Positions 23,818 to 43,777 of a stretch of 43,969 bases of DNA are shown in pieces. The DNA lies in assembly GCA_021845725.1 (NCBI GenBank), contig JAJZVL010000021.1, positions 1 to 43,969 on the forward strand, in the 5' to 3' direction. The DNA is from Actinomycetes bacterium. GTDB taxonomy: Bacteria; Actinomycetota; Acidimicrobiia; Acidimicrobiales; RAAP-2. The notes below the pieces were generated by a model. The model made no database searches and was not told the DNA's origin. It worked only from the letters and a program-made list of their open reading frames with translations. A program made the translations under genes and the position numbers. The first letter of the stretch is position 1. Each line of letters begins with the position of its first letter.

Positions 23818-23819
23818 CT

Positions 23820-23834
23820 CGAGTTCCGTATTCG
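23820..23834 (+). repeat. Left target-site duplication of the casposon
   Basis: CGAGTTCCGTATTCG, identical and in the same orientation to 43763-43777. Three bases separate it from the tRNA 3' end. Because the outer bases can also pair as part of the inverted repeat, the duplication is 13, 14 or 15 bp. Casposases are known to make 14-15 bp duplications. Confidence 0.9.
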
Positions 23835-23909
23835 GAGAAAGCCAGGACCACCGCCCACGGCGACGCCAGAACCGCCGCGCAGGGCCGGCGCGCGGCAGGC
23901 CGCCGGGGC
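23834..23909 (+). repeat. Left terminal inverted repeat
   Basis: 76 bases matching the reverse complement of 43687-43763 with a single 1-base gap (one G fewer after position 23888). Weaker similarity, with the same CGCCAGCCGGG block, continues to about 23980. The remaining stretch to the first gene at 24137 is GC-rich and purine-biased, with no gene seen. Confidence 0.95.
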
Positions 23910-24136
23910 GAGGGACGCGCGGACACGACGGCGCCAGCCGGGGCGCGGAAGGCGAGGGACAGCGGGGCGGGCGAGGGCCCAAGACACGGGGGGCAGCGCG
24001 GGCGCCCGCGCCAGCGGACCCAACCCGGCACGGCCCGGAGAACGCCCGCGGGGCGCCGACAAGCCGGGGCGACGGCCCCTTTCCCGGGAGAACGAACACC
24101 GTCATCCCAGGACATCTGGCGTTACCATGCGGCTCC

Positions 24137-24829
24137 GTGGGCACTGTGTTCGGATTGACGTGCACTCAGCTGGACACGCTTGCAGCGAAGTGGTCGGACG
24201 ATGGTCTGTGGAATGACATTCTGGCGTTGGCTCGCCGCTTCTGGGAAGCGGAGGACGAGGGGAGCAGGCGTGCCGCGTGGCATCACTTGGTAATGGCAGT
24301 CGGTAACTTCAAACGACCAGCAGGGCGCCGCCTATACCCCGAATCGATCTCTCCCCTCGCTGAGGGACACCGCGTTGGCCGCAGGTCCTTCGTCGTCCCG
24401 GGAAGCTCTCATCGGGTTACACGGGATGACCCAGCGACGTGGTGGAACTGGGAGCTTCGACACGCCGCCGTACCTACGCGCACGGCGCTCTTCGCGGCGC
24501 TGTGGCCGAAAGATCACCACGTTCTCGACTGGCGCGTGCGAGCGGCTGTAGTGGCGCTCACGCTGACAACAGGCGCGAGACGTGCGAGCTTGCCTGCTCA
24601 TATCCGAGTCGAGCCGACCACCACGAGAGGGCTCCCGAGTCAAGACAATCACGAATACGCGCCCATTCGCGACATGCTCCGAGACGCCGCGAAGCACTGC
24701 AAGCTATCGCTCGTGACCGTAGAAAGAGCTCTCTACATGCTCACCAAGGAGAAGTCCGTTGGGCGCGTCCCGGGCCGCACGTGGAGTCAGTACCAGCAGG
24801 ATCTGCTTGCTGCCGCCGCAGCAGCGTGA
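24137..24829 (+). CDS. Uncharacterised protein at the left end of the casposon
   Basis: A 230-residue protein from a GTG start; I do not recognise it. It is visibly less GC-rich than the neighbouring casposon genes, which suggests separate acquisition. A segment around residues 113-137 (RTALFAALWPKDHHVLDWRVRAA) has the look of the helical region in some helix-hairpin-helix glycosylase-fold proteins, where a conserved D-x-R follows, but this is a weak impression. The C-terminus is basic and helical (KHCKLSLVTVERALYMLTKEK). Convergent with cas1 and separated from it by a strong hairpin. It may be cargo rather than core. Confidence 0.6.
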   Translation: MGTVFGLTCTQLDTLAAKWSDDGLWNDILALARRFWEAEDEGSRRAAWHHLVMAVGNFKRPAGRRLYPESISPLAEGHRVGRRSFVVPGSSHRVTRDDPATWWNWELRHAAVPTRTALFAALWPKDHHVLDWRVRAAVVALTLTTGARRASLPAHIRVEPTTTRGLPSQDNHEYAPIRDMLRDAAKHCKLSLVTVERALYMLTKEKSVGRVPGRTWSQYQQDLLAAAAAA

Positions 24830-24857
24830 CGAGACCGTGGAACGACCGGGCGTCGTG

Positions 24858-24886
24858 CGAACGATCGTGTTGGGAACGGTCGTTCG
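24858..24886. terminator. Bidirectional hairpin terminator between 24137 gene and cas1
   Basis: CGAACGATCGT (24858-24868) pairs with ACGGTCGTTCG (24876-24886), an 11-bp stem with one G-U pair and a 7-base loop. It lies between the two convergent stop codons (24829 and 24905). There is no long U-tract, but position and symmetry fit a shared terminator. Confidence 0.55.
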
Positions 24887-24904
24887 AGGGCGGAGCTCAC
24901 GCGG

Positions 24905-26683
24905 TCAATTGATCATCTTGCGGGTCGAGGGATCGCGCGCAGGGGAACCGGAGAGGTCCACGCCCGCCAGCTGCGCGAGCGCTCCCCAGTGCCTCGGGTG
25001 CGGCACCGCCCGCCCGGCCCGCCACTTGCTCGCCGCCGACGTCGAGACCCCGGTCCCCCTGGCGATGGCCGGCAGGCTGAGCGTGGCCAGTCGGGGGGCA
25101 ACCTGCTCGTGGTACCAGGCCTCGTCGAGGGCTCCGGAGGCCTCACGGTCCCAGGCTCGCTGGGCAAGCGCCTGTTCGCGGTTGCGAGCCTTTCGAGCAG
25201 CAGCCGCCTCGGGGGTGTGTGAGGGTCGGGAGCCCGTCGCCTTCGCAAACGCCGCCGCGTGGGCCAGGCTGGCACGCTGCATCGGGCGGTCGACCTCGGC
25301 CCTGCGCTCTGGCAGACAGGTGTCGCACCACCCACGCCGCGAGCGTGCCCGGTCGGGCTCGACCGGGAGCGCCGCTCCGCAACCCTGACAGGAAGCCGCT
25401 GGAAGAGGCGGCGTCGTGACCCGCGTGCGCCGCCGCCCTCGTGGTGCGATGCCCCCGGGGTTGGGGCCTTGGCGGCTGCGGGTCTCCGCGGATGCCCCAT
25501 GTTCGGCTGCGACCCGGCGCCTGGCAGCGGCCTTGTGCTTGGCCCCCGAGAGGACCGTCGGCACCGTGACGTCGTAGGGGGAGCTCGCCGCGAGCAGGCT
25601 GGCGACGTGCTCCACCACCGGGCCGAGAGCATGGGCGTAAGCCGGCATCGCCTCGGCGAGCTGATGGGTGAGCGGCGCCACGCAGCGCACGACCCCCCGA
25701 GCGTCTTCGACGAACATGCGCTTTTGGAGCGGTCCCTTCACGATGTCGAGCACGTGGTCGTCGACGATGGGGCGGATCGCCTCCATCACGTCGCAGCTGA
25801 AGCTCGGACGCCCTGCCATGTCCGCGTGGAGCACGCCGATCGACTCTGAGAGCCCGATGCGACGCAGTGCGAGCGTCGACTCGACCTCGGCCAGCTTGTA
25901 CGCGTAGTTGAGCGCTGCTCCACAGGGATCGGTGGCAGAGCGTGGGCTCCCGGGGTTGACCGACGAGCGCCTGCCGTTGAAGCTCCGCCAGTGCGCAGGC
26001 ATCCTGGAGACGTCCCTTCTCGTGAAGACGACCTCGACGCTTCGCTCCCACGCCGCCCAGTAGACGTTGGCTCCTGCGGCCTCAGCCTGGCGGATCTCTT
26101 CGATGGAGCCGGCCTGGTTGACGGTCTCTGCCAGCTCCAGGAGCGTGCTGGCGGCGTCTTCGTCGTCGAGCCTGGCGCTGAGCACCCGTGCCTGGCCGGA
26201 GAGCTTGGTGGTGATGAGGTACCTGCTGACCTCGACGCCCGCGAGCGCGTAGAGGGCGAGCGCCTGGGCACGGAGCAAGCGGGCGTCGTCTCGGCCCGGA
26301 GGACCTGCTGCCAGGGCTGCCCCATCGGCATCCAACACGGCAACGGGAACCCCCACCTTCGTGCACCAGCGCAGCGCGTCGAAGCTCACGATCCCCTCGG
26401 TGCCCGAGGCGACCACGAGCCGGCTCGGAGCGTCGATCTTCGTGAACCGGCGGACCCTGCGGTGCTCTCCGAGCCCGTCTGCGAGCTCGAGGTGCCCTCG
26501 CTCCACGACTACCCGCGCGCCGTAACCGTCGACGACGGCGACCTCGCCGGGGTGGGATCCATAGGTGTCGGCTACAGCACTGAGCCGGTCGACAACGTCT
26601 TCGGCGGTGAGCGCCGGCCCCAGAGCAATGACGTGGGGCACATGAGCTGGCGGCGCGGCGGCGATAGCGTGCGCTTCGTCCAC
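24905..26683 (-). CDS. cas1: Cas1 integrase (casposase) with C-terminal zinc and HTH extension
   Basis: A 592-residue protein. Residues about 15-120 are the Cas1 N-terminal beta domain (SRLVVASGTEGIVSFDALRWC, GVPVAVLDADG). Residues about 135-380 are the alpha-helical catalytic domain with the metal-binding set E266 (in YKLAEVE), H286 (VLHAD) and D298/E301 (SFSCDVMEAIRP), equivalent to the Glu-His-Asp/Glu triad of Cas1. An extension adds a CxxC-x17-CxxC zinc motif (C432, C435, C453, C456) and a helix-turn-helix (about 535-573). Ordinary CRISPR Cas1 is about 300-350 residues, so this extension, probably for recognising the element's ends, fits a casposase. The GTG start has GGAGG five bases upstream. 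It stands alone on the minus strand with no cas2. Confidence 0.95.
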   Translation of the reverse strand: MDEAHAIAAAPPAHVPHVIALGPALTAEDVVDRLSAVADTYGSHPGEVAVVDGYGARVVVERGHLELADGLGEHRRVRRFTKIDAPSRLVVASGTEGIVSFDALRWCTKVGVPVAVLDADGAALAAGPPGRDDARLLRAQALALYALAGVEVSRYLITTKLSGQARVLSARLDDEDAASTLLELAETVNQAGSIEEIRQAEAAGANVYWAAWERSVEVVFTRRDVSRMPAHWRSFNGRRSSVNPGSPRSATDPCGAALNYAYKLAEVESTLALRRIGLSESIGVLHADMAGRPSFSCDVMEAIRPIVDDHVLDIVKGPLQKRMFVEDARGVVRCVAPLTHQLAEAMPAYAHALGPVVEHVASLLAASSPYDVTVPTVLSGAKHKAAARRRVAAEHGASAETRSRQGPNPGGIAPRGRRRTRVTTPPLPAASCQGCGAALPVEPDRARSRRGWCDTCLPERRAEVDRPMQRASLAHAAAFAKATGSRPSHTPEAAAARKARNREQALAQRAWDREASGALDEAWYHEQVAPRLATLSLPAIARGTGVSTSAASKWRAGRAVPHPRHWGALAQLAGVDLSGSPARDPSTRKMIN

Positions 26684-26709
26684 GGTGCCTCCTTGGTGAC
26701 GTGGACCAC

Positions 26710-26740
26710 GCCCCGGGGGTGTTCGAGCACCGCCCGGGGC
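26710..26740. promoter_or_regulatory. Large hairpin in the cas1 leader
   Basis: GCCCCGGG (26710-26717) and GGTG (26718-26721) pair with CACC (26728-26731) and CCCGGGGC (26733-26740): a 12-bp stem with one bulged G and a 6-base loop. It ends 27 bases upstream of the cas1 GTG, on the transcribed side. It may terminate the upstream minus-strand gene or throttle cas1 expression. Confidence 0.5.
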
Positions 26741-26832
26741 CTCTTCTTGTCACCCGGACCGTACCGCTGAACGGCAACCAGCAGCCAGCGCCCCGACAGG
26801 CCAGGAACCAGGTCAGGAGTCGATTGGCGCTG

Positions 26833-27597
26833 TCACTTCGATCGCCGCCGGCGCTTCGCGGCGCTGCTCGACCATGCGAGCGCGGACCCCCGGCTCTCGA
26901 CGCGCACCGCACGGAGTGGAGCAGGGTTCCGCGTACCGGGGCTCTCCCCGAGGACGATGACCCTTTCGTTCACGACGATGGTCCGGAGCCAGGATCGGAG
27001 GAGGGAGACGTGTCGAACGCTGTGGCGGCGGGTGCACTTCGAGCACGCATAGTCGGCGAAGAGGCCGTCCACATCTCCGTAGGCGCCGTTGCGGCGAGGC
27101 TGCGCCGGCTCCGATGTCCTGATCGCGCGGACCCGTGGTTCGAAGTCGTCATCGAACTCCACGTCGTAGTCGAACTGTCGAGCGACGCCGGGCACCACTC
27201 GCCAACCGTCTCCGAGCGACGATGGTGTTCCGAGTTCCAGCTCTGCGTGGTACTTGTCCAAGATGTAGGACTTCGTGTCGAGGAGAGACGTGTCGGGTGC
27301 TCGCTCGTGTTGGTGCGGCAGCCGGGGAAGGTGGATCAGGCGGAGCTCGGTGTCGGGCAGTGGTGTGACCGTCACCCAGTCGAGATGGTGGCCCCCACCG
27401 CACCGCACACGAACATAGGGATAGAAGAACAGCACCCGCTTCGCGCTGCGCAAGCGCTCGTCGTCAAGGGCCCGAGCCGGCAGTTCGCGTGACTTGCCTG
27501 GCTCGATGTCGAACGCTGCTTCCAGCTCTCCGAGAACCTCGAGGGCGCGCGTAGCGGTCGCAATCTCTACGGACCTGTCCCGGCGGGTGGCAGTCAT
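26833..27597 (-). CDS. Uncharacterised protein upstream of cas1
   Basis: A 254-residue protein, not recognised. I place the start at ATG 27597 (MTATRRDRSVEIATATRALEVL), preceded by AGGGAAG. The open frame runs on to 27936, but that part is antisense to the HTH gene. The sequence is mixed alpha/beta with acidic and Tyr-rich central parts. It has a C-x2-C (YACSKCTRRH) and a CGGGHH cluster that could bind zinc, and a very basic C-terminus (AAKRRRRSK) suggesting nucleic-acid binding. It is co-oriented with cas1 and may share a transcript. It is divergent from the replication operon across a 181-base control region. Confidence 0.6.
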   Translation of the reverse strand: MTATRRDRSVEIATATRALEVLGELEAAFDIEPGKSRELPARALDDERLRSAKRVLFFYPYVRVRCGGGHHLDWVTVTPLPDTELRLIHLPRLPHQHERAPDTSLLDTKSYILDKYHAELELGTPSSLGDGWRVVPGVARQFDYDVEFDDDFEPRVRAIRTSEPAQPRRNGAYGDVDGLFADYACSKCTRRHSVRHVSLLRSWLRTIVVNERVIVLGESPGTRNPAPLRAVRVESRGSALAWSSSAAKRRRRSK

Positions 27598-27778
27598 CTT
27601 CCCTGCGCTTCTGTCGTCGGGCGTCGACGGCGGACATCCGCGCTCACGCACAACCACGAGGCTACTATTGGACAGGTTTGCTCCACGGGAGACTCCGTGG
27701 GCGACGTGCAATAGGACCAGAGGCGACCTGCGAAGAGCCTCTGTTGGCACCGCCGGAAAGCGGGAGCCGGGAGTCAGC
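27598..27778. promoter_or_regulatory. Divergent control region of the casposon
   Basis: 181 bases between the divergently transcribed minus-strand gene and the plus-strand replication operon. TACTAT at 27663-27668 is a possible -10 box in a local AT-richer patch. Just downstream is a perfect inverted repeat CCACGG (27683-27688) / CCGTGG (27695-27700) with a 6-base loop. These are plausible promoter and operator elements for the small HTH protein encoded next. Confidence 0.4.
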
Positions 27779-27973
27779 ATGCCCGGAACCCCATCCGACG
27801 AGCCGATCGCCGTCAGCATCGCGGAGGCCGCCGCGCGTCTCGGCATCCACCGCCAGACGCTCCGTGCCGCGATCGAGCGCGGTGACGTCCGAGCCATCCG
27901 CATTGGCCGGCGCTGGCTCGTCCCGATCGCTGCCATCGACGAGCTGCTCGAGGGCCGTCGTGCCCGCCCATAG
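27779..27973 (+). CDS. Excisionase-type small HTH DNA-binding protein
   Basis: A 64-residue protein with the MerR/excisionase-like helix-turn-helix signature: VSIAEAAARLGIHRQTLRAAIERGDVRAIRIGRRWLVPIAAIDELL. This pattern (HTH followed by a wing G-D-V...R-I-G-R-R-W-x-V-P) is typical of Xis/AlpA-like regulators and recombination directionality factors. It opens the replication operon and is preceded by a GGGAG ribosome binding site. Probably autoregulator of the operon or an architectural factor. HTH proteins are common companions of cas1/polB in casposons. Confidence 0.82.
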   Translation: MPGTPSDEPIAVSIAEAAARLGIHRQTLRAAIERGDVRAIRIGRRWLVPIAAIDELLEGRRARP

Positions 27974-28502
27974 GCCCGTCGACCCGAACCTGCTTGCGCG
28001 TGCCCGGCGAGGCGAGCTCACCCGGGCGACCGCTCGCAGTGCCGAGGAACGCCGCGCCGTCTATCGGAGTCAGTACCTCTCGCGCCGAGCTGCAGCAGCC
28101 GATCTTTCGGCCCGAGAGGCCCTCGGCCACTACGGACCCCTGGAGCGCCCACGGGTCGCCACGTTCTTCGCCCGGACGCCCGATGGCGCCCGACTTGTCA
28201 CGGTCGAGCACGTCTCGGCCGCCGACCAGCGCCGCGCCGGCCGCTACATGCGCGCCTGCCAGGGCCTTGCTCGCGGCACCTACCGCACGCCTTCGGGCGT
28301 CCAGCTCACCGGCGCCGCCGCAGATCGCCACTTCGCACAGCGCTTCTCGCGCTGGAAGCCGATCGCCGGCATGGAGGTGGTGAGCGACCCCACAACCGTG
28401 AAGGCGCTCGTCGTCGTCGGCCGGGAGACCGGCACAGAAGTGCTGTTCGACTCGGGGCGCGCACGCCCAGGTCGGCGCCGCAGGACCGGAGGCAGGCGAT
28501 GA
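27960..28502 (+). CDS. Uncharacterised basic protein in the replication operon
   Basis: A 180-residue protein from a GTG start at 27960, overlapping the HTH gene by 14 bases and the next gene by 4 (ATGA). The N-terminal third is a highly charged helix (LLARARRGELTRATARSAEERRAVYRSQ). A mixed middle with several Thr/Tyr/Arg follows, then a very basic tail (RPGRRRRTGGRR). No catalytic motif is evident. A role bound to DNA, for instance with the polymerase or as a priming or end-binding factor, is possible from context only. The frame extends further upstream antisense to nothing real. Confidence 0.55.
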   Translation: MPAHRPVDPNLLARARRGELTRATARSAEERRAVYRSQYLSRRAAAADLSAREALGHYGPLERPRVATFFARTPDGARLVTVEHVSAADQRRAGRYMRACQGLARGTYRTPSGVQLTGAAADRHFAQRFSRWKPIAGMEVVSDPTTVKALVVVGRETGTEVLFDSGRARPGRRRRTGGRR

Positions 28503-28858
28503 GCCGGGTGCTCGGACCGTGCCTGTTCTGCGGTGCGCCAGCAGCAGAGCTGCACCACTGGACTGCGGCACTCATCCCAGACGGCGAGTACCTCGATCCC
28601 GTTTCGACCATCCCGCTCTGCATCTCCTGCCATCACGCCGAGCACGCCGCCTGGCGTGAGCAGGGCATCGAGTCCTTCCGCGACCCACTGGAAGCCCGCC
28701 TGGTTCGCCTCTCGTGGCTCTGGCAGCGCCTGGCCGACCTGGCCGAGCACGGTGAGCCGCGCACCCTCGACGCTGCGAGCCAGCGCGGCGTCCACCTCGT
28801 CGTCCTGGCGATCACCGAGGAGCTTGGTCGCCGGTGCAGTTGGGAAGCGGTGCCATGA
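28499..28858 (+). CDS. HNH-like zinc-binding protein
   Basis: A 119-residue protein with two Cys pairs, C8-x2-C11 and C41-x2-C44, framing a His-His (H19, H20) and followed by H45, H46 and H49. The order CxxC...HH...CxxCHxxxH is that of HNH/zinc-ribbon nucleases, though the central Asn is not obvious and activity is unsure. HNH nucleases are recurrent casposon genes. The start overlaps the upstream stop (ATGA) and its TGA overlaps the next ATG, so translation is coupled on both sides. Confidence 0.65.
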   Translation: MSRVLGPCLFCGAPAAELHHWTAALIPDGEYLDPVSTIPLCISCHHAEHAAWREQGIESFRDPLEARLVRLSWLWQRLADLAEHGEPRTLDAASQRGVHLVVLAITEELGRRCSWEAVP

Positions 28859-29763
28859 CCCTCGGCGTCGTGAACCTGCGCGCCTGGCCCGGGCGCCCCG
28901 AGCCGAAAGACATCCAGCCGTCTTCGACGACGCATGCCCCCGAGCGCATCGTCCATCACGGCGCGCTCGTGCTCGTCCTCGTCGCAGAACGTGGCGCCGT
29001 TCCAGAGCGCGTCGGGCTCGGGATGTGCCTCTCCACCCTCGGACCGAGCGTCAAGCGGGCGGCCCTCATCGTCGACGACGACCTGGCACACCACCATCGG
29101 GATGCGCTCGCTGAGCTCCAGGCCTGGGCAGGGGCGACGAGCTACGTGACGCCCAGGGGTCATGGGCACCTGGCGGTCGTGACCCGCTCCGGGTTCTGCG
29201 ACCCCGACGACGGCATGCTCCTTCGGGCCTACACCGGTGGCGCGTTCCTCCTCACGGCCGACGAAGGGAGGAGCCTGGGGCTCTTGGCCGAGCACACCGG
29301 AGCTGCGGCCGGCCGGTTCTGTGGCGGGTTCTCCCTGGGGATCGCGGGCTGGGGCCATGTCGGCGAGTGGGTGGAGCGTTCGGGACGACCCCGCCGAGGG
29401 TGGCGGGCACTAGCCCATCGCCCGGTGCTGCGTGTGAAGGCCCTGGGCGGGCACGGGCTCATGGCCGAGTGGGGCCGGGCCAGTCGAGGCGGGCGCCTCC
29501 CCGACGGGTCGCCAGCAGGTCGCTGGGAGCAGGGCCGGCCCTTCCTCGGGCGCGTCGTCGACCTCGTCGGCCCGGCGTTCGCGCTCGACGGCATCGATAC
29601 GGGGGACCTGGCCGAGCACCTCTGTGCCTTCGGGCTCCCGGCCCTCTCGGTGCCAGCCGCCCTCCCGGTCACCTCCGATTCGGCGGCGTCCCTCTTCGCG
29701 CTCGCCCACTCCATCCACGCGTTGGCCCTGGCACTCGACGAGGAGGCCTCCAGATGGTGGTGA
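28855..29763 (+). CDS. Exonuclease-domain-like partner of the PolB
   Basis: A 302-residue protein directly upstream of the polymerase, overlapping it by 10 bases. Its second half reads like the 3'-5' exonuclease region of family B polymerases: GRFCGGFSLGI, then RPVLRVKALGGHGLMAEWGR, then GRPFLGRVVDLVGPAFALDG with an Exo III-like Asp, then LAEHLCAFGLP. A clear Exo I D-x-E is not visible and the Exo II Asn/Asp are not obvious, so the domain may be structural rather than proofreading. The polymerase that follows lacks this N-terminal portion, so together they look like one PolB split into two genes. The start is ATG 28855 within ATGA; the longer frame from 28834 is not needed. Confidence 0.55.
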   Translation: MTLGVVNLRAWPGRPEPKDIQPSSTTHAPERIVHHGALVLVLVAERGAVPERVGLGMCLSTLGPSVKRAALIVDDDLAHHHRDALAELQAWAGATSYVTPRGHGHLAVVTRSGFCDPDDGMLLRAYTGGAFLLTADEGRSLGLLAEHTGAAAGRFCGGFSLGIAGWGHVGEWVERSGRPRRGWRALAHRPVLRVKALGGHGLMAEWGRASRGGRLPDGSPAGRWEQGRPFLGRVVDLVGPAFALDGIDTGDLAEHLCAFGLPALSVPAALPVTSDSAASLFALAHSIHALALALDEEASRWW

Positions 29764-34781: not shown

Positions 34782-34786
34782 TGACA

Positions 34787-35568
34787 TCACTCCGGCCATA
34801 TCGACTCCGCAATCGTGCCCAACGCAGCCTCACTTCGACCTTGATCTCGTTGAGGATCCCCACGCAGCCGCGCCCGCGGCACAGAGCGTGGTCGACGCCT
34901 ACCATCACGGCCACGCCGGAGCGCACCTTCGGCTCCATGCCCTTCGGCGCAACGGCCATAAAGCGTATGATTTCCTGGCCGTCTTCGAGCGGGCCGCTGT
35001 AGATGACCTCCATGTCGAGCAGCTCGGTTGTTGTATCGGTGAACAGGGAGTGCCCGGCGTCGAACGTCGACACCCGTGCTGGATGGATCAGCCGATGGCG
35101 GTTGACACGCGCCAGCTCGTACAACAGCCAGAGACCTTCGCGCTGTCCGTCGTACGGCTGTACCGATTCGAACAAGACCCGGTGCTCGTCGGAGAGCTTC
35201 TTGACCCGGTTCTGCTGTCGGAACAGATCAGGCTCACGGAAGATCGGGAACTCGACGGTCTCTGGTTTGAGCGTTGGGAACGTTGGCGCGTCGAGCAGGG
35301 CAACCTGGTACGTCATGTAGTGAAGCGCGGCCTGGACGCAGTCGAGGTAGGAGCTGAAGAGTCGGGAGAAGCGATCGAAAGCTTCAGCCTCGGCGGTTGG
35401 ATCGATGAGTCGGCGAAAGACCGCTGCCCCTTTCCTGCCCTTCATCTCTATCCGGATTCCGTACGGGTGCGTTTCCATGAACGTTCGGATCTCGTGTGTA
35501 AGGGCTTGAGCGTCAGCATTCGCCCAGCGAAGGCGCGTGTAGCAATCGGTCAAGGGGTGGAGAGTCAT
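34787..35568 (-). pseudogene. Conserved-looking gene coupled to the restriction enzyme, probable frameshift near its end
   Basis: The ATG at 35568 overlaps the TGA of the restriction enzyme gene (35565-35568), so the two are translationally coupled. About 245 residues are convincing: mixed helical protein beginning MTLHPLTDCYTRLRWANADA, with charged helices and a late VEVIYSGPL-like strand region. The same frame then runs to 34156, but that tail is antisense to the methyltransferase and has no natural composition. Shifting by one base near 34830 gives a helix RSEAALGTIAESIWPE and a stop at 34787-34789, which looks like the true end. So this is a single-base frameshift, natural or from sequencing. 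Function unknown; it may be an accessory to the restriction system. Confidence 0.5.
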
Positions 35569-38500
35569 CCGCTCGCCGAGACGAACCCTGCGAAGTCAGA
35601 ACCCGAGCGCGGGGAGTGAATCCACGATCGCCACGCTCTCCACCGACACCCGCACGATCCGGGCCAGGAGGTCGACGGCGGGTCCTTCGACCACGTGTTC
35701 GGGTCGTTCACGATGCCAGAGGCCTTGTCGATCTTCACCTGGTAGCGGTCGAGGATCCACTCGACGGCAGAGCGCCCGTTCACCTGGTATCGGTGGGCGT
35801 CCTCGGGTATGCCCGAGAGCGTGACGTAGTGGTTCACGACCACGGTGCTCCGATCGGCCTTACTGGCGAAGCGCATCTTCTCCACCCGGAGGATCTTCGG
35901 ATCGGCGCCTTGGTCAGGAAGCCCGTCGAGCGGCCAGGGCTCCACCGTCTCGTAGCCGAGGTGCCAGCGGGCGAGCGCTGCACCGGCGTCGGCGAACGCC
36001 CAGAAATCCTCGACCATGGGGATCCTCGGGATCATCTTCCCGAGCTCAGCGGCGAAGCGGCTCGTGTACTCAGGCGAGTGCAGCAGGCCGTAGACGTAGT
36101 CGAAGACGTCGTCGGCCGAGACGTCGTCGCCGTAGCGCTCCCGGTAGCGGTCGAGGGTGCGAACCGCGATGGCGTCGTGGCGCTCGAACCCCGCAAACTC
36201 ACCGACCCACGCTACGTTCATGCCATCGTCGGTCGCCTGGGTGTAGCGGCAGCGGGGAAAGCACTGGGACTTGTCGAAAATGTTTAGATTCGGGACAACA
36301 TCGCAGACGAGTGCAGAGAATCCGTTGCGATCGCCGACCCCAGACACGACGATTACTCGGTTCTCATGCGCCGGCGTCGGGAAGAGCGAGGGCGTGAGGT
36401 AGACGCTGTTGTTCCACTGGCGGTCGAAGTAGAGCCACTGCTTGCAGAACGGTCGGTACATGGAGGGGACGGCGTGCTCGGGTTCGAGCGCACCGGTTTT
36501 GTTCTTGCGAAGATCGCTCTTCAAGGTGCCATCCCAGCTCACCCGGGTGGGATCGGGGTCGACGAAACCGTTCACTGCGTCGTCGGTCGCCTTGACCAGG
36601 CCTTCGCGGACCGCAGCATGGAACCGCTCGCGCTCGTCGTTGTAGGCATCGATCGTCCGCTCCATGTTTGCGATGACCACCGCCTGCGAGAAGTTGTAGG
36701 TCCAGGCGTCCCGGTTCGTCTTCACGCCGTTGGAGTACGTCTCGAAGATCGCGTCGCGTGCAGCACCGCCCTTGTCCCCGAGCGGTGCGAAGGTCTCGAA
36801 GATCTCGCTGCGCTGGTTGATCCAGTCGCCCGCAGCGTTGGGGGTGATCGCCTGCCAGTCCCCGCCGGTGACGTCCCCGAAGCCCACGAGCTTTGCGAGC
36901 TTGTCCTCTCGGGTGAGGTAGTCGCCGATGTCGTGGTAGTGGATCGTCGCGGGGCCCGAGTGTGCAGGGTTCTTCACGAGCAACGTGATGGCGACCGGAG
37001 TCCGGCTGCCCGATCCGAAGATCTTCCCCCCTTCCCTTCGCGACACGTCTCCTTGGGTCCGCTGGTTGCCGCGCAGGTTGAGGCACCAGATGGAGGAGAA
37101 CTCCTCGGCGAGCGCCTTGCGGAAACCGTCGTGAGAGCCCGAGTCGATGAAGGCGCCGTTGGTGACGAAGCAGACGACGCCGCGCTCGCCGATGCGGTCC
37201 GAGGCCCAGCGGAAGGCCCGGATGTAGGAATCGTAGAGACTGTTCTTGAGCCTCGCAGTGGACCGAGCGGCATAGGTGCTGCGGATCCGCTCGTCGAGCT
37301 TGGGGTAGCGCAGGTTCTTGTTGTTGTCGTTCTCCGAGTCCTGGCCAACCGAGTAGGGGGGGTTCCCGATGACAACGGTGATCGGGAGTCCCTGCTGGTG
37401 TCGTGCCCGCTCGGAGTTGGGGCGCAGGAACTCGGGCAGCAGCTCGCCGGTGCCCTCGCCGAGCTGGAAGGTGTCGGTGAGCACGATGCCGGGGAACGAC
37501 TCGTAGTCGCCGTCGCCACGCAGCGCGTGGTAGGTCTGCTCGATGTTGACGGCTGCGACGTAGTAGGCGAGGAGCACGATCTCGTTGGCGTGGAGGAGGC
37601 TCTTGTAGGTGGGTTCCAGGTCTGCGGGATCGAGCATGGCGAGGAGCCTCGCGACGAAGGTGCCGGTGCCGCAGAAGGGCTCGAGGACATGGACACCGTC
37701 GGCTCCGAGGTGGCTGTGGAACTCTGAGCGCAAGACGTGCTCCACGCTCCTCAGCATGAAGTCGACGATCTCGATCGGGGTGTAGACGATGCCGAGGCGC
37801 TCCGCGACCTTGGGGAAGGCCCGGCGGAAGAAGGTCTCGTAGAGGTCCTTCACCACCTTCTGGCGTGCGGCCAGGTTGTCGAGGTTCTCCACGCGCATGC
37901 GCACCGAGGCGTAGAAGGAGGAGAGCTGCTCGCGCTCTTGGTCGATCGCCTCTTCTTCGTGCAGCGCCGTGAGCACGTCTGCCATCGAGACCGAGACCGG
38001 GTTGGTCCTCGTGAAGGTGGCATCCCCGAAGAGCGCCTCAAACACCGGGGCGGTCACCAGGTGCTCGGCCAGCATCTCGACGGCTTCGTCCTTCGTCACG
38101 GCGGGGTTGATCACCTGGCGCAGGCCTTCGAGGTAGCGCTCGAAGGCGTCTGCGACGGTGCCCGGGGCGCCGATCGCGGTCGTGATCCGGGTGATGTGGG
38201 CCTGGGCGATGCGGGCCACGTCCTCAGCCCACGACTCCCAGTAGACGCGGCTCCCCACGTGGCGGACGATCCGGGCGTAGACCTTGTCCTCGAGCCCCTG
38301 CCAGGCGAGGGTGAGCTGTTCGACCTTGGCGCCGCGGCTCGTCGACGCCTCGGTCCCGGTGCCGACCCCCACGACCCGGATGCGCTCGGAGCGGCGCTCT
38401 TGGAGGTCGAGGCGGTTCACCTCGGCCTCGAAGCGGTCGTCGTGGGCACGGAGCGCCTGGAGCACCTGCCAGACGACCTTGTAGGCCTTGTGGTCGTCCA

Positions 38501-40622
38501 AGACCTGCTCGGGGTCTTGGTCCGAGGGGACGGGGACCGGGATGATCACATAGCCGTAGCGCTTCTCCTCGGCCCTGCGCATCACCCTGCCCACGGCCTG
38601 GACGACGTCGATCTGGGAGGCCCGTGGGTTCGTGAAGATGACGGCGTCCAAGGCCGGGACGTCGACGCCTTCGGTGAGGCACTTGGCGTTCGTGAGCACC
38701 CGGCAGGTGCCCTCCGGGTGGTCCTCACGGAGCCAGGCGAGGGCCTGGTCGCGCACGAGCGCCCCCATCGTGCCGTCGACGTGGCGAGCTTCGCAGACCA
38801 CACCCTCTTCTCCGCGTTCGACCATGGCGTCGACGACCTTTGGCAGACCGCCCGCGACCCGCTTCGAGTAGGCGATCGTGGTCGAGAAGGCGACCGCCCG
38901 GCGCATCGGCTGAGCATCGGCACCGAAGTCCCCTTCGTCCGCGCTCTGTTTGGAGAGGCCCCGCCAGATGCCGGCCAGGCGTGCGGCGTCGGCGAGCATG
39001 AGGTCGAGGCTCCGGTCGGTGATCGGGCCGTGGGCGACCTCGTTCACCCAGGCCTCGTCGACCATCAAGACCACGACCTTGTAGTCGCTGAGCAGGTCCT
39101 GGTCGACCGCCTCGCCGAAGCCGAGGGTGTGGAAGGTGGGGCCGTAGAGGCGCGCTGTGTCCATGGAGCAGAGCACGACGTCCTGCTCTTTCGCCTTCTC
39201 CTTCACCGCGTCGGAGTAGAGGCGGGGGGTGGCGGTCATGTAGAGCCGGCGCCGTGCGCGGAAGCGCTCCTCGTCGTGGACGGCGGTGAAGCCGCTGAAG
39301 CCCTTGTCCTCGGAGAAGGCCCCGGTCGTCCGGTGCGCCTCGTCGCAGATCACGAGGTCGAAGCTGGGCGCACCGAGCGCCTGGGCAGCTGCGACGCGGT
39401 CGAGGGACTGGTAGGTGGAAAACACGCAGATGAGCGGGTTCTCCTCGCCCTCTACCTCCTTCTGAGCGAGGGCGAGGTGCTCTGCGATCCGCTCGGGGTC
39501 CGTCGTCGCGGGGAGCGCCAGGTCGTAGACGTGGAGGTCCTCTGTGTCCTTCGTCACCTGGGCGTCGGAGCACACCGCCATCGCGTGCAGCGGCCGGGCG
39601 GCGTCGGCCGACCAGGCCCGGAGGCTCTGGGCGAGAAGCGAGATCGAGGGCACGCAGAAGCAGACGACCCCGCCTGCGGGCACCGTCTCTTCTGCGAGCT
39701 TCAAGGCGGTGAAGGTCTTCCCCGTCCCACAGGCCATGACGAGCTTGCCCCGGTCTGAGGATGAGAACCCCTCGATGCAGTCGTCGATCGCCCGTCGCTG
39801 GTGGGGGCGCAGCTCGTGGCGCTCCCGGCGGAAGAGCTGCTCGGGGTTCGTGGGCTCGAAGCGGCTCCAGTCGAAGGGGCTCGTGGCCAGCTCTGCGATG
39901 CCGATGCGCTGGACCGGGACCGCCTGGTCGGCGAGGACCTTCTCTGCGTAGCGGCCCCAGCGCTCGGTCGTCGAGACGAAGAGGCGCGAGCTGAACGGAC
40001 GCTTCCCCGAGGCGACCAGGAACCGGTCGATGTCGTCTCGGCCGATCGTGGTCGAAGGCGCGTAGAACTTGCACTGGATCGCGCAGAGCCCGCCCTCGCG
40101 CTCCTCTGCGACGAGGTCGATGCCGGTGTCGCCTTCGTCGGGAGGACGACCGGGCCACTCCGACCACTGCCAGACCCGGGAGAACCGTTCGGCGAAGAGC
40201 GGGTCCTCGGTCAAGAAGGCCTTCATGAGGCGCTGGAACACGAGGCCGCGCCCCACGTCGGTCGAGACGTGCGCCCGGATCTTCTCGAACAGGCCCCCGG
40301 GACCCGCCAGCGCCCCAGGGTCGAAGGCCGGTGTCGCCTCGTCGGGTGTCGCCGGACTCCGACGGGCGGATCGCTCGGGTGGGCGGGGTTCGGCGAGGGG
40401 GCGCCGAGATCCGTTCGCGCCCTGTGGCTCGTCTGCGAGGGCGAGGCTGCCACCCCGGCCACGGCCTCTGCGGACGAGCCCTTCAGCGACCAGCTCGTCG
40501 ACCGCTGCCCTGTAGGTCGCTTCGTCCAGCGGCGTCGTGGCCCGCAGGCGACCGTTGCCGATCGAGGCGCCGTCTGGCGGGATGGCCGAAAGCACCATCT
40601 GGGCAGCCGGAGACAGACCCAT
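35565..40622 (-). CDS. Single-chain type ISP-like restriction-modification enzyme
   Basis: A 1685-residue fusion that cuts unmodified DNA and methylates self. Order: N-terminal winged-helix-like region (residues about 1-60); Mrr-like nuclease with D169...QCK (Q183, K185); SF2 translocase with Walker A MACGTGKT (297-304), DEAH (427-430), TATP (463-466) and motif VI QAVGRVMRR (675-683); a helical coupler; gamma-type adenine methyltransferase with motif I LEPFCGTG (about 980-987) and NPPY (1087-1090); C-terminal target-recognition region. Size and order match the LlaBIII/BsuBI-like type ISP group. The start is ATG 40622 with GAGGG upstream; the frame extends to 41450 only as antisense to small plus-strand genes. 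Probably cargo that stabilises the casposon or defends the host. Confidence 0.9.
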   Translation of the reverse strand: MGLSPAAQMVLSAIPPDGASIGNGRLRATTPLDEATYRAAVDELVAEGLVRRGRGRGGSLALADEPQGANGSRRPLAEPRPPERSARRSPATPDEATPAFDPGALAGPGGLFEKIRAHVSTDVGRGLVFQRLMKAFLTEDPLFAERFSRVWQWSEWPGRPPDEGDTGIDLVAEEREGGLCAIQCKFYAPSTTIGRDDIDRFLVASGKRPFSSRLFVSTTERWGRYAEKVLADQAVPVQRIGIAELATSPFDWSRFEPTNPEQLFRRERHELRPHQRRAIDDCIEGFSSSDRGKLVMACGTGKTFTALKLAEETVPAGGVVCFCVPSISLLAQSLRAWSADAARPLHAMAVCSDAQVTKDTEDLHVYDLALPATTDPERIAEHLALAQKEVEGEENPLICVFSTYQSLDRVAAAQALGAPSFDLVICDEAHRTTGAFSEDKGFSGFTAVHDEERFRARRRLYMTATPRLYSDAVKEKAKEQDVVLCSMDTARLYGPTFHTLGFGEAVDQDLLSDYKVVVLMVDEAWVNEVAHGPITDRSLDLMLADAARLAGIWRGLSKQSADEGDFGADAQPMRRAVAFSTTIAYSKRVAGGLPKVVDAMVERGEEGVVCEARHVDGTMGALVRDQALAWLREDHPEGTCRVLTNAKCLTEGVDVPALDAVIFTNPRASQIDVVQAVGRVMRRAEEKRYGYVIIPVPVPSDQDPEQVLDDHKAYKVVWQVLQALRAHDDRFEAEVNRLDLQERRSERIRVVGVGTGTEASTSRGAKVEQLTLAWQGLEDKVYARIVRHVGSRVYWESWAEDVARIAQAHITRITTAIGAPGTVADAFERYLEGLRQVINPAVTKDEAVEMLAEHLVTAPVFEALFGDATFTRTNPVSVSMADVLTALHEEEAIDQEREQLSSFYASVRMRVENLDNLAARQKVVKDLYETFFRRAFPKVAERLGIVYTPIEIVDFMLRSVEHVLRSEFHSHLGADGVHVLEPFCGTGTFVARLLAMLDPADLEPTYKSLLHANEIVLLAYYVAAVNIEQTYHALRGDGDYESFPGIVLTDTFQLGEGTGELLPEFLRPNSERARHQQGLPITVVIGNPPYSVGQDSENDNNKNLRYPKLDERIRSTYAARSTARLKNSLYDSYIRAFRWASDRIGERGVVCFVTNGAFIDSGSHDGFRKALAEEFSSIWCLNLRGNQRTQGDVSRREGGKIFGSGSRTPVAITLLVKNPAHSGPATIHYHDIGDYLTREDKLAKLVGFGDVTGGDWQAITPNAAGDWINQRSEIFETFAPLGDKGGAARDAIFETYSNGVKTNRDAWTYNFSQAVVIANMERTIDAYNDERERFHAAVREGLVKATDDAVNGFVDPDPTRVSWDGTLKSDLRKNKTGALEPEHAVPSMYRPFCKQWLYFDRQWNNSVYLTPSLFPTPAHENRVIVVSGVGDRNGFSALVCDVVPNLNIFDKSQCFPRCRYTQATDDGMNVAWVGEFAGFERHDAIAVRTLDRYRERYGDDVSADDVFDYVYGLLHSPEYTSRFAAELGKMIPRIPMVEDFWAFADAGAALARWHLGYETVEPWPLDGLPDQGADPKILRVEKMRFASKADRSTVVVNHYVTLSGIPEDAHRYQVNGRSAVEWILDRYQVKIDKASGIVNDPNTWSKDPPSTSWPGSCGCRWRAWRSWIHSPRSGSDFAGFVSASG

Positions 40623-40858
40623 CGAGCCCTCACGCCCCTCCGTGTCCACCGCCGCTATCGTGCCACGTCCTGGGCCACCGAGCGCGTTTGTCCCTGGCTG
40701 TGGGCACCGGTCGCCCACGAGCGACCCCTGTGTGCGCCCGTGTGGCGGCGAGCGTGCCATCGGCAGTGACCCCCCACACAGAAGAGGCGCCATCCTGGGG
40801 ACGGAGAGACGCTGTCCGGCCCTCCGAGACGCTCGACGGCGACCTACAGGCTTGGCGC

Positions 40859-40877
40859 CGGGGCTGCGACAGCCCCG
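40859..40877. promoter_or_regulatory. Hairpin upstream of the 40893 gene
   Basis: CGGGGCT (40859-40865) and AGCCCCG (40871-40877) form a perfect 7-bp stem with a 5-base loop, 15 bases before the GTG/ATG start at 40893/40896. It lies in the 270-base divergent region between the restriction gene and the small membrane gene. Possible operator or 5' leader structure. Confidence 0.35.
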
Positions 40878-40892
40878 CCATAGGGTGGAGTC

Positions 40893-41276
40893 GTGATGGT
40901 GACCGAGCGGCCAGGAGACCGAAGAGGTGTGCGCTGGTGGCGCTCGCGCGCTCCGTTGGAGCGGCGCCTCATCGTGCTCGCCGGCGCCGCCGTGCTCGTC
41001 GTCGCCGTCCCAGGGCTCCGAGCGGCCGTAGTCGAGCTGGCCGTCGCCGTGGTGACGTTGGGTGTCGTACTCGGGCTCGTAGGTCTGTTTGCCCTGGTCA
41101 TCGCGTGGCGGGTGGTTCGCCGCCACCCACTTGGCGACCTGCTCCTCGGCGCCTGGCTCCTCCGCCGCCACGAGCGGCGTCAGCAGCGGCACGTGGATGC
41201 TCGGAGCTGGTACGTCGCACGCCAGCCCTACGAGGCCCGGAGCTGGGAGACGGGCACACGCAGACGGGGCTGGTAG
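40893..41276 (+). CDS. Small two-helix membrane protein
   Basis: 127 residues. Two hydrophobic segments (about residues 26-44 LIVLAGAAVLVVAVPGLRAAV and 48-72 LAVAVVTLGVVLGLVGLFALVIAW) are followed by a strongly basic cytoplasmic-type tail rich in Arg and Trp. Start GTG 40893 or ATG 40896, with GGGTGGAG upstream. I do not recognise a family. It is in a pair with the next gene, 60 bases apart. Confidence 0.6.
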   Translation: MMVTERPGDRRGVRWWRSRAPLERRLIVLAGAAVLVVAVPGLRAAVVELAVAVVTLGVVLGLVGLFALVIAWRVVRRHPLGDLLLGAWLLRRHERRQQRHVDARSWYVARQPYEARSWETGTRRRGW

Positions 41277-41336
41277 ACGGGCCGAGCGGAGTCGTCCCTC
41301 CACCTGCTCCGTCACCCCCAGAGCGATGCTGGGTCC

Positions 41337-41750
41337 ATGGCCATCATCGAGTGCCCACGCTGCGAGACGACGTTCGAGACCCAGGCCACGACGGCCACGC
41401 GGTGCCGCTCGTGCCGGAGCGTGGTGCACGTCGGGCGAGGAGCGGCACATGGCTCTCTTCGTACGTCACGACCCGCGCGTGCCACACGGAGCACAGACGA
41501 GATCGATGGAGAGGCAGCTCAGCCAGGAGCGATCGTCGTCGTGTTCGTGATCGCAGGGATCGCCATCGTCGGGTACCTCTTCGTGCAAGCGTGGCGGCGT
41601 CGGAAGGCATCGGGGTCAGCATCGAGCGTGTCCGGCGTCGAGCCAGGGGGTGCCGTGTACCGGCCCTCGGAGCCACTCGCCGCCACCTGCCCTCTCTGTC
41701 AGACCGGTGTGGCCCGGTGCGCCGTCGTCGGCTGTCCGATGCCTGGGTGA
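41337..41750 (+). CDS. Zinc-ribbon plus transmembrane protein
   Basis: 137 residues. The N-terminal zinc ribbon is CPRC (C6, C9) ... CRSC (C23, C26). One transmembrane helix lies at about residues 67-85 (IVVVFVIAGIAIVGYLFVQAW). The C-terminal Cys motif is CPLC...CAVVGCP. It resembles the small prokaryotic proteins with an MJ0042-like N-terminal zinc finger and a single membrane pass. ATG start at 41337. No function can be given; it may be cargo or a membrane sensor. Confidence 0.65.
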   Translation: MAIIECPRCETTFETQATTATRCRSCRSVVHVGRGAAHGSLRTSRPARATRSTDEIDGEAAQPGAIVVVFVIAGIAIVGYLFVQAWRRRKASGSASSVSGVEPGGAVYRPSEPLAATCPLCQTGVARCAVVGCPMPG

Positions 41751-42052
41751 GCCGTTGCCAGGCGCACACATGTTGGGTCCGCCCCAAGTCGCCTCAGACG
41801 TGGACATGCCCGTCCACGCCAGGGCCGGTCCACGCCCTTCCGGGTTCTGAGCTGTGCAGTGGAGTCACGAGCATGCGAAAGTCAGCGTTGTGGCTGTCGA
41901 TCCAGCCTTGACCGGGTTTGTCGCCGTCGCACTCTTGGTGTCAACGCTGTGTGCAGCGAGAACGTTGGGGAAACGCCGGCGTGCCGGACCGGGTCTCCCG
42001 AGAGGCCCGCGTTGCGGTTCGATAGACTCATTGCAACTAGCAATGGAGACCA
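41751..42052. other. Gap between the zinc-ribbon gene and the AT-rich cassette
   Basis: About 300 bases in which base composition falls from GC-rich to more AT-rich near 41860-42050, marking the left edge of the following cassette. Short ORFs exist on both strands but none has a convincing start or composition. A GGAGA ribosome binding site (42045-42049) precedes the next ATG. No promoter boxes with good spacing seen. Confidence 0.5.
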
Positions 42053-42895
42053 ATGGAAATACGGGGATCTGGCCATTTGGAATTCGACAAGTCGATACAC
42101 TCTCGCGCCCATCGTCGACTGGTAGTCGACTTGTCACGCGTCGAACACTTGAACGTATACGGGCTAGTCGCGATTGCGTGTGCGATTCTGCACTCGGCAC
42201 AAGAGACACTCCCGATAGAGATTCACTCGCCCAGAGCCGCGGCAGCGTCCAACTTCATGTCAAGTCTTGGTTTCGATCAGTTTAGCCGTAATGTGGGCGG
42301 AGTAACATGCTCACTACCAGTAACGACCTCAGCTAAGTCAGGTGACGTAATTGTAGGACTACAGACGTTCTCGTCATCCGGGGAGCTTCAACCTCTGCAG
42401 GATCTCTTATGGGATCGTTTGGAAGGTGCTCGCATCTCGAACATACGGACTGCATTGGTTGAAGCCCTTTGGGAACTCGGAGCTAACGTAACGGAGCACT
42501 CAGGATCCATAGGAATCGTCGCTGCCTGTGTGCAACGCCCAAACCGAAAGGATGCCCATGTTGCGTTAGCCATAGGTGATGCTGGGAAGGGGTTGCGACG
42601 TTCCTTTCTTGAGGGGGCAAGGCGACAGCACCCAGCGTCCGATCATGAGGCCATCACCCTCGCATTGACGTACCTCGTCAGCTCGCTTGCAGACTCTGGT
42701 AGGGGCCAAGGTCTTACCACAACGGTTAAACAGGCACTCTCGCTGCAAGGACGAGTCACGATACGGAGCGGAAATGCCCGTCGAACCATTACACATTCTC
42801 GATGGGATCCTGACAACTTGCATCAATCGGGCACCGCGGCATCGGTACCGACGCTGCCAGGTACGCTGGTCGCTGCTGATCTTCCGTGCCGCTAG
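42053..42895 (+). CDS. STAS-like plus HATPase-domain protein
   Basis: A 280-residue protein of unusual composition: clearly lower GC and different codon use from the rest of the window. The N-terminal ~75 residues resemble a STAS domain (LVVDLSRVEHLNVYGLVAIACAIL). Residues about 115-230 look like a GHKL/HATPase: N-box EALWELGANVTEHS (E141, N145), G1 box IGDAGKG (D176, G178, G180) and G2 region GRGQGLTTT (217-225). This fits anti-sigma-factor-like serine kinases. It is followed 33 bases later by another STAS-like gene, so the two probably form a partner-switching pair. Whether it belongs to the casposon's original gene set is doubtful. Confidence 0.7.
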   Translation: MEIRGSGHLEFDKSIHSRAHRRLVVDLSRVEHLNVYGLVAIACAILHSAQETLPIEIHSPRAAAASNFMSSLGFDQFSRNVGGVTCSLPVTTSAKSGDVIVGLQTFSSSGELQPLQDLLWDRLEGARISNIRTALVEALWELGANVTEHSGSIGIVAACVQRPNRKDAHVALAIGDAGKGLRRSFLEGARRQHPASDHEAITLALTYLVSSLADSGRGQGLTTTVKQALSLQGRVTIRSGNARRTITHSRWDPDNLHQSGTAASVPTLPGTLVAADLPCR

Positions 42896-42928
42896 AATCG
42901 CAATCAGATAGGTTCGGAGAACCCATAA

Positions 42929-43264
42929 ATGACATCCGTGTCACTCAGAACGCCGCAAAACGTTGGCACCCGGGACCTCGTGCGTGAGTGGCTGCTGCGC
43001 GATGCTCCCACTGACCTGAGCGGTAGGCTCGTTGAGGTCGATTGCTCCCCCCTCCGGGCACCAACCCCTTCGTTCCTGGACGAAATGCTGAAGGTCCTTG
43101 TCCTGGAGCGCTATGCGTCTCGCGTTGAGCTGCGGCACGCTTCGGATCGCGCGAAAGCTCTTGCCACCCGCTCAGCTCAGAACCGCAGGATAGACGCGAG
43201 GCTTGGCTTTGTGGAGGACGCGCCGCGAACCTGGCTTCACCGGCTCCGCGGAGTCAGTCGGTAG
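42929..43264 (+). CDS. STAS-like (DUF4325-type) small protein
   Basis: A 111-residue protein. The core (GRLVEVDCSPLRAPTPSFLDEMLKVLV) has the beta-loop-helix of STAS-like DUF4325 proteins, with Pro-Ser-Phe-hydrophobic after the strand where anti-sigma antagonists carry the phosphorylated Ser region. It pairs with the upstream HATPase protein. ATG start 42929; composition intermediate between the AT-richer neighbour and the GC-rich right end. The likely job is a phospho-switch partner. Target and trigger are unknown. Confidence 0.6.
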   Translation: MTSVSLRTPQNVGTRDLVREWLLRDAPTDLSGRLVEVDCSPLRAPTPSFLDEMLKVLVLERYASRVELRHASDRAKALATRSAQNRRIDARLGFVEDAPRTWLHRLRGVSR

Positions 43265-43686
43265 CGCAACGGCGCCTCAAGCCGGTTCCGGCCAGGCGCG
43301 CTTTGCTCCGTCCGTCTCTGGCCCCGCCGGTGCGTCGGTCCTCCCCGCCCGGCTCCGGTCCCTGCTCCCCGTGGCCTCCGTTATCCCCTGCGGTTCCCTC
43401 GCTCCGGCGGTTGTTCCCGGCTCCCTGCCTGCGGTTCGGTTCTGGCTCTCTCGGGGCCCGCGCCTCCGTGGGTCAGTGAGCTGAGACCGGCCGTTCGGCT
43501 GGGCCTCTCAAGTCTGCTGTTCCCTCCCCGGCCCCGTGGTCCGTGCCCCGTCCCGGGGGGTCCCCGTCGCCCCCTCGCTGTCGCCGTTGGGGGGGGTCCG
43601 CCCGGTTGGCCCCTCTCTCCCGCCTCCCCCCGCGGTCCCCCGCCTCCCGCGCCCGGCTGGCGTCGTCGGGTCGGGCGGTCCCCGTT
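43265..43686. other. Gene-free pyrimidine-rich right subterminal region
   Basis: About 420 bases without a plausible gene. On the plus strand it is extremely rich in C and T with few A, the mirror of the purine-rich left subterminal stretch. Imperfect inverted similarity to the left end continues inward from the TIR to about 43615. It may hold casposase- or replication-related binding sites. Long ORFs here are composition artefacts. Confidence 0.6.
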
Positions 43687-43763
43687 GCCCCGGCGGCCTG
43701 CCGCGCGCCCGGCCCTGCGCGGCGGTTCTGGCGTCGCCGTGGGCGGTGGTCCTGGCTTTCTCC
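43687..43763 (-). repeat. Right terminal inverted repeat
   Basis: 77 bases whose reverse complement begins GGAGAAAGCCAGGACCACCG and matches 23834-23909 with one extra G. The outermost base is 43763, directly before the right target-site copy. Confidence 0.95.
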
Positions 43764-43777
43764 GAGTTCCGTATTCG
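43763..43777 (+). repeat. Right target-site duplication
   Basis: CGAGTTCCGTATTCG, identical to 23820-23834. It is followed by AACTCGG, so in the empty site the sequence forms CGAGTTC-CGTATTC-GAACTCG, a 7-bp inverted repeat with a 7-base loop. The casposon separated the left arm from the right arm. Confidence 0.9.

Follow-up and report, generated by a model that had tools for sequence, protein, structure and literature searches.

A stretch of 43,969 nucleotides of actinobacterial DNA (assembly GCA_021845725.1, contig JAJZVL010000021.1; hereafter the window), which makes up an entire contig (C19) in a 150-contig draft genome (3.05 Mb, 92.5% complete), very probably carries a recently inserted and apparently intact casposon. 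We place the probability of this reading, which includes a proposed Cas1-mediated integration at a transfer RNA (tRNA) gene and a set of genes for the element's own DNA synthesis, at roughly 85%. It draws on the boundaries of the element, its terminal inverted repeats (TIRs), target site duplication (TSD), gene content, Cas1 clade, spacing from the tRNA gene, terminal tracts devoid of thymine (T-free), and the uninterrupted target in relatives, each of which is apparent from the sequence; the element is presumed to be mobile. An initial annotation had proposed a complete casposon on the basis of a solitary Cas1, a family B DNA polymerase (PolB), TIRs, and a target duplication, and all four were borne out, the polymerase by indirect evidence and the duplication as one of 15 bp at the 3' end of a tRNA gene. 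The T-free tracts, the division of the polymerase between two genes, and the serine-recombinase flank had gone unmentioned in that annotation. Relatives are denoted below by genome (G), contig (C), or fetched stretch of DNA (L).

The casposon spans positions 23835-43762 (19,928 bp); it had been located correctly, save that each boundary (given as 23834 and 43763) was off by one base. Its left TIR (23835-23910, + strand) opens with GAGAAAGCC, and its right TIR (43686-43762, - strand) ends at 43762, with 207 bp remaining to the end of the contig. As proposed, the two are near-perfect: their 76/77-bp alignment has 75 matching positions and departs from identity at one 1-base gap and in its final column, and a weaker end-to-end similarity reaches approximately 130 bp. 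The outcome named in advance as contrary, that the repeats would prove unrelated, was not seen, both matching in the present draft assembly. The flanking TSDs, CGAGTTCCGTATTCG at 23820-23834 and 43763-43777, are identical by direct comparison at 15 of 15 positions; a duplication of 13-15 bp beside a tRNA gene had been predicted, and it is exactly 15 bp and adjoins tRNA-Leu(TAA). The two ends of the element are the only ones in the genome to match a 20-base pattern taken from the TIR end with three or fewer mismatches. Among relatives, G053, G018:C61, and G112 are delimited by TIR and TSD, and G077 has an exact 15-bp TSD spread over two contigs (TSDs of relatives read by eye).

Casposase and target site

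The product of 24905-26683 (- strand) had been described as a Cas1 with catalytic residues and no CRISPR (clustered regularly interspaced short palindromic repeats) partners. The suggested search with profile hidden Markov models matched it to Cas1 of both Pfam (1.7e-32) and NCBIfam (3e-28). Residues E201, H286, and D298, which we take to be catalytic, are invariant in all 14 aligned Cas1s, which also share two C-terminal CxxC pairs; a C-terminal helix-turn-helix (HTH) region is found in the window protein (Pfam, 0.0044; PHROGs, 7e-4) and in nearly all of the others. A scan of genome contigs gave one locus, and the window Cas1 is the only Cas1 found in the source genome, at the completeness given above. 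Searches with this Cas1 returned no match among phages and none among viral contigs, and 33 matches on plasmids, all below 60% identity; Cas1 was the annotation of 29 of 30 among the matches listed.

A tree of Cas1 cores, which retained matches scoring at least 40 to a casposon profile and rows longer than 180 residues, placed the 14 casposon Cas1s in a single clade (support, 100/100). The window protein grouped with those of G059:C97 and G076 (100/100), joined next by a group of G053, G077, and G059:C29 (87/82). Eighteen other Cas1s of the same class fell outside the clade, 16 of them in one group with L127 and L134 apart; weak matches (e.g., L128-L131, L133, L135, L136), G425, and fragments in G068, G059:C24, and G035 were left out. 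No CRISPR-like array was found by scanning the window and 19 further stretches holding relatives, whereas flanks of up to 1.5 kb around the other 18 loci held an array-like repeat in 12 cases, a Cas2-like open reading frame (ORF) in 13, and at least one of these in 16. L121, L109, L115, and other loci of the class are ordinary CRISPR-type loci, flanked by array-like repeats and Cas2-like ORFs. A position of the window Cas1 within a CRISPR-associated clade, with an array in relatives, had been named as the other contrary outcome and was likewise not observed; for cas2, the search consisted of the Pfam, PHROGs, and NCBIfam scans of the window proteins.

The target gene, tRNA-Leu(TAA), lies at 23744-23818 (+ strand), and 29 nt separate the end of its T-arm motif, TTCGAATC, from the TIR. 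In a survey of this spacing, 20 of 21 TIR queries were found, at 22 ends, and the T-arm motif TTCRANTC was sought within 60 nt upstream of each; the distal ends of the window, G053, and G077 were set aside, as was G035:C83. The motif was present at 16 of the 22 ends, lying 29 nt from the TIR in five, 25 nt in seven, and 24 nt in four. The six ends without it were that of G059:C97, that of G065, whose contig starts too close, and both ends of G112 and of G018:C66. The target logic of these casposases would thus comprise a T-arm and a clade-specific spacer longer than that of Aciduliprofundum boonei, which fits all 16 motif-bearing ends, and it may be Cas1 itself that recognizes the T-arm, acting at a fixed distance downstream. 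By analogy with the enzymes of A. boonei and Methanosarcina mazei, from which the integration chemistry is taken over, Cas1 would join the 3' ends of the element to the staggered target, and fill-in would leave the 15-bp duplication.

On the other side of the element, 43778-43969 (- strand) comprises the end of a gene for a large serine recombinase, as known from relatives, and the 207 bp to the right of the casposon match DNA of three relatives in the genus at 84-89%. In those three (G051, G059, and G071), the 3' end of a tRNA or transfer-messenger RNA (tmRNA) gene is followed without interruption by the target and then by the end of the serine recombinase gene; the 15-bp target of G059 is the same as here, and those of G051 and G071 each depart from it at one position. 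The recombinase of L052 has the Pfam domains Resolvase, Recombinase, and Zn ribbon with SmpB adjoining; the tmRNA label derives from such neighboring smpB, the tRNA search there having found only the tRNA-Ala of L053. Since this junction is uninterrupted in relatives, the casposon must have entered where tRNA-Leu met a resident serine-recombinase element. In the search for empty sites that had been suggested, the target was contiguous in G051, G059, and G071, while the exact empty site, with tRNA-Leu joined directly to this recombinase flank, was seen in no relative examined. Twelve of 13 genomes of the genus, the source genome among them, yielded tRNA-Leu(TAA), and inspection of up to 150 nt found a casposon-type TIR directly after it in five of the 12 (G000, G077, G080, G035, and G059) and none in the other seven; the same TIR type occurs at other tRNA genes in relatives. 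L052 and L049 (tmRNA-like end) and L053 (tRNA-Ala) together display a serine-recombinase element family that resides at tmRNA and tRNA 3' ends, with a conserved near-palindromic junction resembling CGAGTTTCGTATTCGAACTCG. Separately, L101 (G077:C210) carries two T-poor casposon-like ends in the same orientation (12652-13007 and 13744-13966), approximately 1.1 kb apart, one of which abuts the end of a serine-recombinase element, indicating nested or tandem insertions.

Several observations weigh against the reading of the island as a casposon with a tRNA-directed casposase. In the PDB, its Cas1 matches a CRISPR Cas1 best (4n06, 3.6e-17) and the A. boonei casposase, of family 2, less well (6opm, 9.7e-12), and in the tree the latter, represented by a fragment, falls outside the 14-member clade; because of these two results, close kinship of the window Cas1 with family 2 casposases appears disfavored. 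The insertions of G112 and G018:C66 have no adjoining T-arm, and the polymerase ORF had no direct match in Pfam, PHROGs, or NCBIfam, so that its identity as PolB rests on relatives. Two alternatives are each very improbable. The Cas1 could be a remnant of CRISPR adaptation, as the PDB match would allow, or the boundaries an artefact of a draft assembly in 150 contigs with a TIR 207 bp from a contig end, but the casposon Cas1s form a clade apart from those of CRISPR type, arrays accompany 0 of 20 casposon-bearing stretches and 12 of 18 other Cas1 loci, the TSD is perfect, and TIRs of the same type recur at other tRNA genes. Equally, the island could be a serine-recombinase integrative element that merely carries Cas1, given the recombinase gene at the right flank and the position of its element at tRNA or tmRNA ends in three relatives, but in those relatives the junction is uninterrupted and here the casposon TIRs and duplication lie within it, while G053 and G018:C61 are delimited by TIR and TSD and the parts of them compared match none of this flank.

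Thymine-free terminal strands and the polymerase

At both ends of the casposon, the inward-reading strand is without T, for 245 nt on the left (23835-24079, + strand) and for 251 nt on the right (43512-43762, - strand); two more T-free runs, of 88 and 91 nt, lie just inside the right tract. Apart from these two, the longest T-free run elsewhere in the window on either strand is 59 nt, and the longest among 200 first-order Markov copies of the window was 85 nt. Neither end contains a stop codon in any of the six frames.

The feature was surveyed in a table of 20 ends of the related clade and five ends of three outside elements. The table is subject to a selection bias, since a TIR pattern lacking T over 18-24 nt served to locate most of the ends; those of G076 and G037, which came from a scan for T-poor stretches, then proved to fit the tRNA spacing. 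No T occurs in the first 75 nt of 16 of the 20 clade ends; among the 15 of these that are long enough, 11 have none in 100 nt and nine none in 120 nt. The remaining four (G059:C24, G035:C176, G035:C83, and G023:C112) look decayed, their first 60 nt containing 1-2 T; a clearly broken Cas1 fragment is present only in G059:C24. T is present at all five ends of the outside elements, with 5-10 in the first 60 nt. Weaker TIR matches were kept out of the 20: L100 (G059:C12) has its first T at position 5, two matches in L099 (G059:C203) have 4-6 T in the first 50, and those in L064 and L082, with 3 T in the first 50, are probably due to chance. In the fetched DNA, a casposon-rich sample of 806 kb, 19 T-free runs of at least 90 nt were counted; by inspection, 17 are at or near casposon ends, 13 of them starting at a TIR or no more than 13 nt outside it and four lying inward of an end by no more than approximately 300 nt. 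Of the other two, one consists of a tandem repeat and the other, in G051:C6, is at no assigned end. This last run (L039, 1966-2221) extends for 256 nt to the end of its contig, approximately 220 bp downstream of a tRNA-Leu and with no adjoining T-arm; perhaps it is another casposon end with a different TIR.

Pairwise differences among seven ends with related TIRs, the pairs being non-independent, were of the types A/G (143), C/G (182), and A/C (88), against only 4 C/T, 6 G/T, and 3 A/T. In nt 1-60 the place of T is taken by A and G, and in nt 61-100 by G, the G content of these two intervals being 40% and 51%, compared with 34% inside the elements, and that of C 35% and 31% compared with 34%. 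A G-quadruplex motif was found on the T-free strand of 12 of the 16 ends and on the opposite strand of none; shuffled sequences gave an expectation of 4.7, and 1.3% of background strand-windows have such a motif. These 16 ends are kin and do not represent 16 independent cases.

The polymerase appears to be encoded by two overlapping genes (+ strand): one for an N-terminal part (28834-29763), assigned by homology to relatives, and one for the palm part (29757-31856), which has the motifs DVRSAYP, DTDG, and KRY and overlaps the former in ATGGTGGTGA. The claim of a family B polymerase was thereby sustained indirectly. A PDB search with the 829-residue ORF alone yielded nothing useful, and a PolB search of phages and plasmids gave no match, but the homologue is one ORF of approximately 1000 residues in G112, G018:C66, G152, and G077; four of five aligned full-length single-ORF relatives matched DNA polymerase in PHROGs (best, 1e-7). 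PDB profile matches were weak (best, 0.0023, to a DNA polymerase), with DNA polymerases named in 9 of 11 and 13 of 14. Motifs that we presume to be those of the family B palm are conserved among the window polymerase and its relatives. The polymerase of G053 is split at the same place, and that of G059:C29 some 60-70 residues later; judging from the translations, an ATG overlaps the stop in each. The exonuclease motifs DTET/DCET and NLPFD are kept in G112, G018:C66, and G152, and only the second in G216. Read by eye, both are absent from the window, G059:C29, G053, G077, G076, and G039, the second is absent from G023 (truncated at its N-terminus), and G049:C131 and G018:C61 are altered. The window polymerase, having neither motif I nor II, is therefore called proofreading-less here, a designation that refers to motifs. 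It is encoded in an overlapping run of putative DNA synthesis genes with a DnaB-like helicase and a ParB-methyltransferase, and the element may rely on its own polymerase and helicase to be copied. The idea that exonuclease loss and T-free ends go strictly together was considered and rejected, G018:C61 being without the motifs yet having T-containing ends.

The T-free terminal strand is probably the product of a process acting at the ends, be it replication, transposition, or transcription. The explanation that we favor, at a little under even odds, is that selection acts in favor of a G-rich 5' strand without T, which would be single-stranded or held in an RNA:DNA hybrid while terminal DNA synthesis takes place. 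The strand at the tRNA-proximal end has the same orientation as the tRNA transcript, and transcription continuing into it from the tRNA promoter would yield a U-free RNA; rU:dA pairs are weak, and an RNA copy of the T-free strand would be without such pairs. Three points count against this selection: the edges of the tracts are sharp in some cases (window left, G053) and gradual in others (G059:C97, G059:C271); T is likewise absent from the distal end, into which no tRNA promoter reads; and loss of proofreading accompanies T-freeness imperfectly, as seen with G018:C61. A bolder formulation, and a distinctly more doubtful one, is that these ends represent a new transposon terminus, a three-base (A, C, G) strand of 75-250 nt maintained across dissimilar TIRs that might act as a transcription-fed RNA-hybrid or G-quadruplex origin where the split, proofreading-less PolB starts copying.

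It is unlikely that the tracts are a functionless mutational footprint, left as error-prone synthesis by the proofreading-less PolB removes A from the template and T from its partner. Among T-free elements, four have a polymerase read from a contig that also holds a T-free end (window, G059:C29, G053, and G076), and all four have lost the exonuclease motifs, which are intact in two T-containing elements, G112 and G018:C66; the four ends that retain 1-2 T have the decayed look noted above. However, G018:C61 departs from this pattern, and an A-to-G drive on the partner strand would raise C, which is unchanged or lower. Moreover, the T-free elements with a Cas1 in the tree form one subclade (87/82), and the association may for that reason be a single event. 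Less likely again is concealment of the ends, whereby the absence of six-frame stops and of any site containing both A and T would exclude some promoters, terminators, and restriction sites; both window ends are indeed free of stops and tRNA-adjacent ends abut host genes, but avoidance of specific sites does not require the loss of every T over 75-250 nt, and the three outside elements do without the feature.

Remaining genes, possible miniature copies, and significance

Between cas1 and the polymerase genes are a conserved casposon protein (27678-28502, + strand), with homologous stretches within residues 23-258 in three relatives, and a 119-residue HNH-endonuclease-like protein (28499-28858, + strand) that matched HNH in PHROGs (1.7e-4) and nothing in Pfam. 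Downstream of the polymerase, the DnaB-like helicase/ATPase (31853-33088, + strand) and the fusion of a ParB-like/HTH region with a DNA methyltransferase (33085-34512, + strand) were each identified through Pfam, PHROGs, and relatives. The restriction system of the initial annotation could be specified, from Pfam and follow-up searches, as a single-chain type ISP (IIG-like) restriction-modification enzyme (35565-41450, - strand), presumably carried as cargo. The G+C content of the element is mostly 0.63-0.73 but falls to 0.55 within 42001-43000, where a 280-residue ORF (42053-42895) has no match in Pfam or NCBIfam.

A 653-bp TIR pair in G059:C203 was considered as a miniature casposon and rejected, its flanks being without duplication. 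In G018:C61 (L029, L017, and L018 joined), a 2.2-kb inverted-repeat unit (21677-23893) lies beside a complete casposon (23908-43407); with a TIR like that of its neighbor, it is possibly a non-autonomous copy at the same site.

CRISPR adaptation is proposed to descend from casposons, whose own copying has been little tested. The present lineage provides many copies with precise boundaries, and its clade-specific T-arm spacing predicts the cut position of each casposase. The T-free tract offers a simple signature for casposon ends in draft genomes, having flagged the G076 and G037 ends that TIR patterns missed.

Comparison with known casposons

The rarity implied by the initial annotation was overstated. 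Actinobacterial casposons are already known, as a Streptomyces albulus member is listed in the founding paper within family 3, a separate bacterial clade (PMC4046053), and a match to the window Cas1 (E <= 1e-3) was found in 15 of 100 genomes of the same family, its own included, several of these matches being fragments. T-free ends were not reported in the casposon and casposase literature searched, which included PMC9939771 and PMC9966878 along with the papers cited below, or in that on thymine-lacking transposon ends, a search that left most subscription papers outside; as far as this literature shows, the termini described here appear to be new.

According to the parts of the literature consulted, MetMaz-C1 of M. 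mazei is likewise a casposon with a tRNA-Leu-like (secondary) site, and its excision leaves one clean copy of the target; it differs in being archaeal and approximately 10 kb long, and the portion consulted holds nothing on base-free ends (PMC10359463). As described in the sections available, family 3 casposons share with the window element a bacterial host, a solo Cas1 with PolB and, possibly, an HNH-like gene, TIRs, and a TSD, the median TSD of casposons being 15 bp, and AceAut-C1 of this family shares the C-terminal zinc-binding and HTH regions of Cas1 (PMC4046053). By the same descriptions, the window element differs from family 3 in its T-free termini, its two overlapping polymerase genes without exonuclease motifs, its insertion at a tRNA 3' end, its DnaB-like helicase, and its type ISP enzyme, while the S. 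albulus Cas1 is without added domains, unlike the window Cas1 with its Zn-finger and HTH tail; tRNA targets are reported there for five euryarchaeal casposons (PMC4046053). The casposase of A. boonei, only distantly related to the window Cas1 by PDB match and tree, acts at a tRNA-Pro target and, in the account consulted, likewise makes a 14-15-bp duplication and depends on a determinant upstream of the TSD, namely TCAAATC 8 bp before it (PMC6614799). This determinant, on our own reading, resembles a tRNA T-loop. The distance from motif to TSD, 8 bp for A. boonei as given in the part consulted (PMC6614799), is 14 bp for the window type and approximately 10 bp for the second type observed here.

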